DNA from: Streptomyces spectabilis
GTDB lineage: Bacteria > Actinomycetota > Actinomycetes > Streptomycetales > Streptomycetaceae
Assembly (NCBI RefSeq): GCF_008704795.1
Contig: NZ_CP023690.1
Location: 682,001-746,000, forward strand
Length of the DNA: 64,000 bases
Direction of reading: 5' to 3'
Shown here: positions 45,753 through 51,418 of the stretch, one piece after another
Layout: each line of letters opens with the position of its first letter
Position numbering within the stretch: position 1 is the first letter of the stretch
Translations under genes and position numbers: made by a program
Notes under the pieces: model-generated
Database searches by the model: none
Seen by the model: only the letters and a program-made list of their open reading frames with translations
Told to the model about the DNA's origin: nothing

Positions 45753-46193
45753 ATGACCGACCTCGTCGCTCCTCACGATCTCGACACCACGGCGCTGCTC
45801 GAGGAGTACCGGTCCAAGGTAGTGCCCGCGGCCACTGAATTCGTCAGGGGCCGAATGTCGGCACGGGATCTCCGCGCGATCTGGTTGCCCTACTTCCGAG
45901 GTTCCTTCCTCACCTACGAGAGGGCCGTCCAGGAAGCCTGGCGTGCCGCCTACGGACCTGACCGCGGCATCGAACCGGGCCCTCCGATGGCCGACCCGAA
46001 GTACGCGGATCAGCTCCGCTACTTCCCGGTGACCATCTCGCACAACAACCTCGAGCGTCTCATCGACGTACTCGAGGTCGAGCTTGAGGACCGGACCGCG
46101 AGCGCGACAAAACTGCCAGAGCGGATCATCGACTTCGCGTACGTCATCGACGCCCTGGAGGGCTTGATGCAGTCGCTGTCGAACAAGTCTTGA
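45753..46193 (+). CDS. Unrecognised small helical protein
   Basis: A 146-residue protein without a recognised family. It is predicted mostly helical, acidic, with a Trp/Tyr-rich centre (IWLPYFRGSFLTYERAV) and a C-terminal helix (IDFAYVIDALEGLMQSL). No Cys, signal peptide or membrane segment. AAGGA lies 7 nt before the ATG. It is the first gene of a five-gene operon ending with a UbiB-like kinase and a Clp unfoldase. It might be a substrate, adaptor or scaffold for that module; there is no direct evidence. Confidence 0.6.
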   Translation: MTDLVAPHDLDTTALLEEYRSKVVPAATEFVRGRMSARDLRAIWLPYFRGSFLTYERAVQEAWRAAYGPDRGIEPGPPMADPKYADQLRYFPVTISHNNLERLIDVLEVELEDRTASATKLPERIIDFAYVIDALEGLMQSLSNKS

Positions 46194-46263
46194 TCCAGGC
46201 TCGGCCCAAGACAAAACACAACAGGTTCAACCAGTCCGCGAAGACTTTCAACCGGAGGATCTG

Positions 46264-46992
46264 ATGAGCCTCATGAACGAGCTGCGCGAGGGCGCGGCTG
46301 TCAAGGGCGCCGATGGTTCGGCGCTGCACAATGCCGAAGTAGTCAAGGGACACAATCTCGCGTGGGGCGGCGACCTCTACACCATCCGTCCCTACACCCT
46401 GGGTCCGGCCGCACTCGAGGCCTTCACCGTCCGCGAGCGCATCCACGTTTCGATCGACGGGCTCGGCGAGGACCTGGTCGACCTGCATGGCATCGGTGTC
46501 TACCGTCGGCATGAGCCGCGGATCGGCGCCGAGGGCGAGACCGAGCTGACGTGGCGCACGGCAACCATCGGCGCGCAGTTCCTTTCGCTGCAGGTCGTCG
46601 GCGAGAGCGACGTGTTCGGGCAGGTCAGGGTGACCAACACCCCGACCAGGAGCGAAGGCGCCACTGTGTCGCCGAACCTCGTCCCCGGGCCCGTGGACCC
46701 CGAGATCACCCCGATGAAGAACTGCGTGACCGCGCTGTACCCGCAGTTCGACATCGAGAACCTCGGCGCGATCATCAACACGGGCGGCGTCCGCGTCGAC
46801 GTAGAGTCGCGCGTCAACATGGTTCCGCCGATCGGTGACGTGTCCCGGACGTCGACGTCGTACGCGCTGTACGACGGCGATCGTCAGGTCGGGACGCTGT
46901 TGGCGGCGGACCTCGAGATCGGTGCCCTGCTGCACCACATCCCGGTGAAGAACGCGACCAGCCCGGTCGAGTTCTCAACCATCATCGCCTGA
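46264..46992 (+). CDS. Unrecognised beta-rich protein
   Basis: A 242-residue protein not assigned to a known function. The sequence alternates short hydrophobic and polar residues through its length, suggesting an all-beta fold; GQVRVTNTPT and GGVRVDVESRVNM are typical strands. A single Cys occurs near residue 157. No signal peptide is present. A strong GGAGG precedes the ATG, and the next gene starts 17 nt after the stop. Conserved placement between two other unknowns and a UbiB-like gene suggests they work together. Confidence 0.55.
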   Translation: MSLMNELREGAAVKGADGSALHNAEVVKGHNLAWGGDLYTIRPYTLGPAALEAFTVRERIHVSIDGLGEDLVDLHGIGVYRRHEPRIGAEGETELTWRTATIGAQFLSLQVVGESDVFGQVRVTNTPTRSEGATVSPNLVPGPVDPEITPMKNCVTALYPQFDIENLGAIINTGGVRVDVESRVNMVPPIGDVSRTSTSYALYDGDRQVGTLLAADLEIGALLHHIPVKNATSPVEFSTIIA

Positions 46993-48991: not shown

Positions 48992-49003
48992 CGGAGAGGA
49001 CCT

Positions 49004-51418
49004 ATGCGTGACAAGTTCAGCAACGCCACCGACCAAGTGCTCAGCTTGGCCGAAGGGCACGCGCAACGGTTCAATCATCCCTACGTCGGCCCTGAACACC
49101 TGCTCCTCGGACTGGCTGATCACGCGCAAGGAGCGGCCGCACGCGTTCTCCGGGACAACGGGGCTTCCGTGGAGACTCTCCATGAGAGGGTCCACTTCAT
49201 CCTCGGGGAATCCGAACCTCGTCCGGCAACGAAGCTGCCCACGACCCCGCAGGCCAGCGAGGTGCTCCGCGCCGCGACTCGACAGGCCGGGCACCGTGGT
49301 GACCCCACGGTCGAGCCCGCACACATCTTGCTCGCCCTCCTCGACCAAACGTCAAGGAACCTGAGCGTCGACATTCTGCTCAGCCTCGGACTCGACCCCG
49401 CAGCTCTTCGTTCCGAACTGCTGAAGGCGATGGCGACGGACGCACCGACTGAACTCCCGTCCACGGCAGTCGAGCCGACGGCATTCAAGCCGGCGGGATC
49501 GCAGCTCCTGGATCAGTTCGGTGTCAATCTCACGCGCGAGGCCGCCGAAGGGAAACTCGACCCCGTCATCGGCCGCGATGCCGAGATCCGACGGCTGACT
49601 CAAGTGCTTTCGCGGCGCATGAAGAACAACCCCGTGCTCCTCGGGGACGCCGGCGTGGGGAAGACAGCCATCGTGGAAGGGCTGGCTCGCAACATCGTTG
49701 ACCGTGCGGTTCCGCCCTCGCTCACCGACAAGCAGCTCTACGCGATCGACCTGGCATCGATGGTCGCTGGTTCGCGCTACCGAGGCGACTTCGAGGAACG
49801 CCTCAAGGGCGTCCTCAAGGAGGTTCTGGGCCGCGGCGACATCATTGTGTTCATCGATGAGGTCCACATGCTGGTCGGTGCGGGTGCCGCGGAGGGATCG
49901 ATCGATGCCGCGAACATCCTCAAACCCCTACTCAGCCGTGGCGAGATGAAGCTCATCGGAGCGACCACCCATGGCGAGTACCGCAAGTCGCTTGAGAAGG
50001 ACTCGGCTCTCGACCGACGATTCCAGCGCATCAGTGTGAACGAACCCGCCCCCACCCACGCCGTCGCCATCCTGAGTGGACTGAAGCCGCTGTTCGAAGC
50101 GCACCATCAGGTGACGATCGCTGATACGGCGCTCCAGGCGGCCGTCGACTTGTCTTGCCGCTATCTGCCCACGCGGTTCCTGCCCGACAAGGCGATCGAC
50201 CTGATCGACGAGGCCGCAGCGGAGGTTGCACTACGGCTCGATCCGACGTCGACCGTTGTGGTGGCCGACGACGTGGCAACTGTCGTGTCACAACAGACTG
50301 GTGTCCCGGTATCGACGATGTCCCGAGGTGAGTCGCAGAGGCTCGGACAGATGGCGGAGCGGCTGCATCGGCGCGTCGTCGGCATGGACGAGGCGATCCA
50401 GGCCGTCAGCAAGGCGATCAAACGCGCTCGCACGGGAATTCGGGACCCGCACCGGCCAGCCGGCTCGTTCGTCTTCGCCGGTCCCACGGGTGTGGGTAAG
50501 ACAGAGCTGGCCAAAGCGTTGGCCGAGTTCCTGTTCGATGACCAGGACAACCTGGTTCGGTTTGACATGTCCGAGTTCGGCGAGAGCCACACGGCTTCCC
50601 GACTCGTCGGTTCGCCGCCCGGATACGTGGGCCACGACGAGGGCGGGCAGCTGACCGAACGTGTCCGTCGCAAGCCGTTCTCGGTCGTGCTGTTCGACGA
50701 GGTGGAAAAGGCACACACCGACGTGTTGGACACATTGCTACAGGTGCTCGACGACGGGCAGCTGACGGACTCGGCCGGTCGGCGCGTGGACTTCACGAAC
50801 ACGGTCATCATCCTGACCACCAACCTCGGCTCCCGTGACCTCGCCAGAGATCGTCTCGGCTTCGGCGAGAGCGACAGCAGCCATCGGTACGAGCATCAGA
50901 AGAATGTGGTGTCCGCCGAGCTCAGACAGCACTTCCGACCCGAATTCCTTAACCGGTTCGACGACATCATCGTCTTCCCCGAGCTGTCGCGTGACGACAT
51001 CTTGGCCATCGTCGGACTGCTGGTGAACGACCTGGACGACCGACTCGGCGCCAACAACATCTCGATCGAAGTCACCGCGGCCGCTCGCGAGCGCTTGGCG
51101 GACTACGGACACAACCCGGCGGAGGGTGCACGACAGCTGCGTCGAGCGATCCAGGCCCACATCGAGGATCCACTGACCGAGATGGTGCTCAACGAACGTG
51201 TCGAAGCCGGCCAGACCGTCAGAATCGACACTGACGCGGACTCCGGCAAGCTCACGCTGACCCCGCTGAGTCCATGCGATGGCGACCCTTCACTCGCCGC
51301 GGACGGCAAGGTCTCCGTCGAGGCGAACGGCGGTCTCGACCCCGACCACTCCCCTACCGATCGAGTTACCGATCGAACCGTTGACGGGCCGAACGGCCAT
51401 AAGGTAAGTTCAAACTGA
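49004..51418 (+). CDS. clpC: ClpC-like AAA+ unfoldase without middle domain
   Basis: An 804-residue Hsp100 unfoldase. A double Clp N-domain (residues 1-150) is followed by AAA1 (Walker [14 protein letters not shown], Walker [10 protein letters not shown]) and AAA2 ([24 protein letters not shown]). The stretch between [12 protein letters not shown] and SRGESQRLG is very short: the coiled M-domain/UVR of housekeeping ClpC is missing. RLGF at about residue 623 fits the LGF loop that docks ClpP, so it may still feed a protease. The chromosomal ClpC is normally elsewhere, so this is probably a specialised paralogue for a client in this cluster. GAGAGG precedes the ATG. Confidence 0.88.
51381..51410 (+). 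promoter_or_regulatory. Weak promoter-like pair before the VOC gene
   Basis: TTGACG (51381-51386) and TAAGTT (51405-51410), 18 nt apart, lie at the end of the clpC-like gene. A TAAGT/ACTTA inverted repeat overlaps the second box. It could give separate transcription of the VOC and methyltransferase genes. Confidence 0.35.

Follow-up and report, generated by a model that had tools for sequence, protein, structure and literature searches.

Enediyne biosynthesis has a described gene cassette with the order E3/E4/E5/E/E10, and whether E2 or R3 genes are exclusively present is used to predict 9- or 10-membered enediynes (PMC5181780). DynF, from dynemicin biosynthesis, has been proposed to hold the hydrophobic polyene, and its orthologue Sgd15, from sungeidine biosynthesis, is essential and acts early (PMC8725005). 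The tiancimycin cluster encodes two AarF/ABC1/UbiB proteins, TnmR2 and TnmR3, as well as the HxlR regulator TnmR1; loss of TnmR3 or TnmR1 leads to impaired growth, early death and a lower titre, and the two were proposed by the authors to be a sensor-kinase and repressor pair (PMC9464397). In the UbiB protein COQ8A, the A339G substitution alone reverses the ADP preference, enables autophosphorylation and lowers coenzyme Q (CoQ) production (PMC4718504, PMC7263595). The present analysis concerns a row of five genes (genes 1–5, Table 1) from Streptomyces spectabilis, in a window of 64,000 nucleotides (nt) that is the whole stretch of DNA analysed (G000:C1:682001-746000, where G000 labels the genome). 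The row includes a UbiB gene (gene 4) and a Clp gene (gene 5), and it is probably part of a gene cluster that is predicted to be of the 10-membered enediyne type.

The operon and its enediyne cluster

Membership of the operon in an enediyne cluster is assigned with high confidence. A cassette with the order DUF1702, UnbV, RnfD-like protein, polyketide synthase (PKS) and 4HBT thioesterase (TE) begins near the end of the window and continues past it (locus L004); the RnfD match scored slightly below its cut-off, and the PKS consists of 1984 aa with KS, AT, ACP, KR and DH domains. E3, E4 and E5 are taken here to be the DUF1702, UnbV and RnfD-like proteins, and the order in this cluster agrees with the published E3-E4-E5-E-E10 arrangement. 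A preliminary description of this DNA had called the region a biosynthetic locus, which the nearby cassette bears out. For a 10-membered product R3 would be present and E2 absent; in agreement with this, G000 has at least one DUF1702 match (best 5 of 15 candidates scored) together with a UbiB. In this comparison the R3 of PMC5181780 is, as we infer from the naming, the UbiB family of TnmR3, and multi-copy DUF1702 serves as an assumed stand-in for E2/E3.

The five open reading frames (ORFs) lie where they had been placed, all on the + strand, and their GC content at third codon positions (GC3) is coding-like. The gaps of 17, -4 and 12 nt had been given correctly, but the first is 70 nt and not 71. 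No + strand terminator-like site lies between genes 1–5, the single + site falling within the clp gene; the counts of such sites are not above those of shuffled sequences. The transcription unit may extend to a VOC gene (35 nt gap) and an O-methyltransferase gene (135 nt gap). The GC content of the first 32 kb is 0.72-0.76 and falls to 0.63-0.66 for the remainder of the window, which delimits a cluster-sized island. A scan of the window with Rfam gave no match. Two other readings of the operon were rejected: no quinone or isoprenoid family was found among the window genes scanned (part of the ORFs), and for a defence system only general AAA-type matches were found.

Table 1. Positions of genes 1–5 and of associated cluster genes in the window.
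Feature	Position	Strand	Description
Gene 1	45753..46193	+	146 aa, no known family, conserved beside gene 2
Gene 2	46264..46992	+	242 aa, DUF6073 barrel of eight strands, distantly homologous to DynF, candidate for polyene binding
Gene 3	47010..47735	+	241 aa, LolA-superfamily fold, probably cytoplasmic
Gene 4	47732..48991	+	419 aa, R3-like UbiB/ABC1 with Gly in the Ala-rich loop (ASGS)
Gene 5	49004..51418	+	804 aa, AAA+ unfoldase of ClpC type with no M-domain but with the LGF ClpP-type loop
VOC protein (glyoxalase/bleomycin-resistance fold)	51454..51816	+	probably in the transcription unit of genes 1–5
O-methyltransferase	51952..53088	+	possibly in the transcription unit of genes 1–5
HxlR-SCP2 regulator, R1-like	32189..32899	+	proposed to act with gene 4
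E3 (DUF1702), enediyne PKS cassette	62178..63293	+	family match
E4 (UnbV/ASPIC, FG-GAP)	63290..64000	+	continues past the window end, with E5, E (PKS) and E10 farther on

A UbiB clade with a glycine loop

Gene 4 matches Pfam ABC1 (E 5.5e-36), as the preliminary description had it, and shares with COQ8A and UbiB the ABC1 domain, the KxGQ motif (which reads KAGQ) and the catalytic residues. It differs from them in having ASGS in place of AAAS and DVG in place of DFG, and no isoprenoid gene is found among its scanned neighbours. The glycine stands at the position of residue 339 in COQ8A, so the alanine looked for there is absent. All 11 UbiBs from the first 9 enediyne loci have this glycine, and alanine is found in every one of 30 control loci drawn from across the class. 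In new data, a search of 197 class genomes with gene 4 gave 29 loci other than its own, of which the best two (L189 and L190, from families f19 and f36, the host being f1) have glycine and 27 have alanine. The surroundings, fetched for the two glycine loci only, proved in both cases to be enediyne cassettes, and the loop glycine thus acts as a marker. With 4 more UbiBs from extended single-DUF1702 loci the total is glycine in 17/17 cluster UbiBs (15 loci) and alanine in 48/48 distinct controls; the latter (30 + 27 - 11 shared, plus L033 and L034) are best-scoring loci and hence biased to typical UbiBs.

The first 11 cluster UbiBs form one clade in a tree with 32 controls (100/100 support). Of the 17 cluster UbiBs, 10 have KxGQ and 7 have KxAQ. 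DxG reads DAG in 15 of the 17 and also in one control (L161), so the loop glycine alone separates the two groups fully. The closest described relatives are TnmR3 and the other R3-type UbiBs of 10-membered enediynes, where a UbiB and an HxlR regulator are likewise found in one cluster; unlike these, gene 4 adjoins a DynF-like gene and a Clp gene (TnmR3 was compared by its description and not by alignment). The preliminary description suggested that gene 4 may extract a hydrophobic intermediate, UbiB proteins being known for handling isoprenoid or quinone precursors. A role as isoprenoid or quinone extractor is not upheld, as gene 4 belongs to the enediyne-linked glycine clade and TnmR3 is a proposed regulator (PMC9464397). 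Gene 4 is better read as a regulator, with kinase activity suggested at low to moderate confidence.

The distribution of UbiB across DUF1702 loci agrees with the published R3 rule as interpreted here and extends it to more genomes. DUF1702 was found in 39/392 genomes of the genus (38 over the cut-off), with at most 5 candidates scored per genome, and 38 stretches were taken, leaving out G1034 (broken contigs) and G545 (below the cut-off). UbiB is present in 10/10 single-DUF1702 loci of 75-100 kb (G000, G006:C12, G006:C6, G1072 at 1.55 and 4.5 Mb, G911, G888, G889, G757 and G840; the UbiBs of G000 and G006 were known before the count) versus 0/11 multi-DUF1702 loci of 53-80 kb, among which G1033 is a weaker negative because the stretch covers its cassette only in part. 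For G1072 at 4.5 Mb, the distance from the start of the UbiB is about 15 kb to DUF1702 and 24 kb to UnbV. Neither the single-DUF1702 locus of G1031 (15.9 kb, no UbiB) nor 17 further multi-DUF1702 loci of only 11-20 kb, also with no UbiB, were counted. Other searches, biased to UbiB, added G870:C2, G870:C207, G870:C112, G1160 and G364; G870:C207 has UnbU and UnbV and gave no DUF1702 or enediyne PKS match. The Saccharothrix genome G870 contains three loci with enediyne-type genes (L003, L037 and L185-L187), each with a UbiB. Separately, L108, L109 and L110 carry DUF1702 in four copies, and their PKS match is no more than a distant one, perhaps reflecting a different use of DUF1702.

Genes 1–3 as candidate polyene-handling proteins

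Genes 1–3 had been described as unrecognised, and genes 1 and 3 indeed have no Pfam match, but gene 2 is a member of DUF6073 (E 2.5e-62; 210.8 bits, cut-off 25). Gene 2 also matches DynF both by profile (E 0.0013) and by predicted fold, structure models of genes 2 and 3 having been compared by VIA-align. Like DynF and Sgd15 it is a DUF6073 eight-stranded barrel next to an enediyne PKS; the identity to DynF is 17% over the aligned fold. The suggestion of a β-rich protein that holds a hydrophobic intermediate thus fits gene 2, given the role proposed for DynF (PMC8725005). Genes 1 and 3 accompany gene 2 here; in G006:C12, a cluster with DynF, neither was found.

The model of gene 3 has the fold of the LolA superfamily (DUF1329, LolA, VioE), in line with its earlier description as LolA-like, with a pLDDT of only 63.2. 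In contrast to that superfamily it has no sequence match and, by hydropathy only, no hydrophobic, signal-like N-terminus. A protein annotated in Streptomyces spectabilis shows 96% identity to gene 3 across 87% of the length of gene 3. Profile searches of the PDB with genes 1 and 3 gave unrelated proteins (best E 0.75 and 0.55), and Pfam applied to all members of both alignments gave nothing convincing. Kinship between genes 2 and 3 was also considered, and the comparison gave nothing of weight. Gene 2 is the most probable carrier with gene 3 as its partner, and the polyene-carrier role is predicted with moderate confidence. The DynF-like and LolA-fold proteins are of interest for the early part of the route by which a linear polyene becomes an enediyne.

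A ClpC-type unfoldase

Gene 5 matches Pfam Clp_N, AAA, AAA_2 and ClpB_D2-small, and its identification as an AAA+ Clp protein stands. Its closest solved sequence is a ClpC1 (8a8u, presumably that of M. tuberculosis), and by alignment and tree it groups with ClpC on a long branch, with 53.1% identity to the ClpC of the host. With the ClpC1 of Mycobacterium and Streptomyces it shares the N-domain, two AAA domains and the LGF loop; it differs in that the M-domain stretch is wholly missing from the alignment and the second repeat of the N-domain has VEPAH in place of the IGTEH of ClpC. Gene 5 retains both Walker sets, the pore loops and the LGF loop in intact form. The GC3 of 0.778 is in line with the island, that of the host ClpC being 0.947. 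ClpB and ClpV were rejected as identities: the NCBIfam ClpB model ranked top yet below its cut-off, alignment and tree point to ClpC, and gene 5 does not combine a long middle coiled coil with the lack of a ClpP loop as ClpB would. The M-domain keeps ClpC inactive until an adaptor arrives, and gene 5 may therefore be free-running. Turnover of a client protein by this Clp, as had been suggested, is possible, and the Clp is the least certain part of the overall interpretation. In the open-licence literature searched, for enediynes with a Clp protease, with ABC1 and Clp or with UbiB or AarF and for DUF6073, there was no description of this gene combination.

Conservation of the operon

An alignment of gene 1 was scanned against genome contigs as two short patterns and returned one locus, in Saccharothrix sp. 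NRRL B-16348 (L003); the scan was not exhaustive, as it missed strains known to have gene 1, Saccharothrix syringae among them. In L003 the row reads DUF1702, UnbV, RnfD-like, PKS, TE, gene 1, gene 2, gene 3, UbiB, HxlR, so that the gene 1 counterpart sits between TE and gene 2. Identities to the counterparts are 70% for gene 1, 74% for gene 2, 39% for gene 3 and 47% for the UbiB, and farther along there are relatives of the VOC protein (63% identity), CMD, PLP and MFS proteins. No Clp gene was found in 60 kb of this cluster. The linkage of five genes expected from the preliminary description therefore holds for genes 1–4, a unit conserved in the single other readable genome, and not for the Clp gene, which is an addition found only in the present cluster.

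Several further sources seem to carry relatives of gene 1 along with relatives of gene 2 or gene 3. In Streptomyces sp. NBC_00445 two of the locus tags (OG800_48525 and OG800_48535) are 10 apart, which suggests that genes 1–3 are linked there as well. Wider genome draws gave DUF6073 or gene 1 in 2/150 (own and G006), 1/396 (own), 1/395 (own) and 2/391 genomes (own and a marginal match at 6e-4), and a search for gene 2 among plasmids gave no match. The trio is rare, and the linkage test thus rests on few genomes.

Proposed mechanism and alternatives

The explanation judged probable as a whole is that of an enediyne operon in which genes 1–3 handle the polyene, gene 4 is a switch and gene 5 a Clp of the pathway. 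Genes 1–3 would act right after the PKS and TE, where they would either keep hold of the linear polyene or hand it on. Gene 4 and the HxlR-SCP2 protein would together act as a switch for the pathway, silencing the cluster until it is safe, either through conformational control or through phosphorylation that depends on ATP. Selected cluster proteins, such as the repressor, carrier that is spent or resistance proteins that have been damaged, would be fed by gene 5 to the ClpP of the host without the usual adaptor control. The adjacency of TE, genes 1–3, UbiB and HxlR in Saccharothrix supports this explanation. Any connection of the kinase with the Clp is speculative. Taken furthest, R3-type UbiBs would be the first known natural UbiB clade turned into true protein kinases, here phosphorylating the HxlR-SCP2 repressor or a carrier, and the marked protein would be taken to ClpP by an adaptor-free ClpC; this extension is doubtful, and if it is true the timing of the pathway would be set by a kinase-unfoldase pair. 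McsB-ClpC of Bacillus follows a comparable logic.

Several observations weigh against the explanation of polyene handling, switch and Clp. The real function of TnmR3 is not validated and its overexpression is without clear effect, the second UbiB, TnmR2, has no clear role in the mutants tested (PMC9464397), and kinase activity in trans is shown for no UbiB (PMC7263595). A cluster-linked clade that naturally has the activating glycine, with a candidate substrate nearby, would allow kinase action of UbiBs on other proteins to be addressed in vitro. HxlR-SCP2 was not found in every UbiB-bearing locus: it is found also in L003, L008 and L037, and at E 1e-6 there is none in, for example, G1072 at 1.55 Mb, G911, G889, G757, G840 and G1160. 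The profile match of gene 2 to DynF is by itself weak and depends on the fold, polyene was not seen in DynF upon co-expression (PMC8725005), and there is no functional clue for gene 1. The Clp gene occurs in only 1/15 UbiB-bearing loci (40-100 kb each) and may be a recent passenger.

That gene 5 indeed came in recently and plays no part in the pathway is unlikely: the rarity of the gene and its long branch would fit, but its motifs are intact and its GC3 is that of the island and not of the host ClpC. Somewhat less unlikely is that gene 5 is a spare, altered host ClpC that has no link to the UbiB and protects the producer, either as a duplicated target of a Clp-binding product or by clearing enediyne-damaged proteins. 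Clp-related self-resistance has been described in antibiotic clusters for ClpP-directed products (PMC12607617, PMC13386464), the related Saccharothrix cluster does without Clp and a CalC-like protein is encoded in the window; the scanned genes showed no pathway to a Clp-binding peptide, however, and gene 5 begins directly behind gene 4. It is improbable that gene 4 is a COQ8/UbiB-like ATPase that, with the help of two proteins of lipid-binding fold, makes a hydrophobic intermediate available to the enzymes by lifting it from a membrane or carrier. Genes 2 and 3 do have such folds, the catalytic residues of gene 4 are kept and ATPase activity is also raised in the A339G/A197G variants, but a change of the A339G type lowers the CoQ function of COQ8A/Coq8 (PMC7263595) and TnmR3 behaves as a regulator (PMC9464397). 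Gene 4 also has no strong hydrophobic segment (maximum 19-residue hydropathy 1.59), which is weak evidence given that 14/30 controls lack one too and that 5/11 cluster UbiBs exceed 1.9.

Other genes of the window

A START/AHSA1 protein related to TxnO9 (E 3.5e-13) and CalC (E 1.1e-10) is encoded at 57617-58150 (- strand), close to genes for a small helix–turn–helix regulator and an MFS protein. CalC has a self-protection role, and the START/AHSA1 protein possibly acts in this way. The MetE-like protein at 53160-54260 (- strand) has 80-84% identity to counterparts in the UbiB-bearing enediyne loci G1072 at 1.55 Mb and G911 and 68% to G870:C112; judged from these identities, its gene is a shared cluster gene. 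The MFS transporter at 54798-56453 (+ strand) is 84% identical to one in the enediyne locus G1072 at 4.5 Mb. The region 32916-42390 encodes an amidase, two class V pyridoxal phosphate (PLP) enzymes (one PvdN-like), an M1-peptidase-like protein, an FAD monooxygenase and an AsnB-type protein, perhaps for a side moiety. At the other end of the window, 469-6727 (+ strand) contains acyl-CoA dehydrogenase-like, class III aminotransferase and ketosynthase genes, which are perhaps the end of a prodiginine-like cluster.

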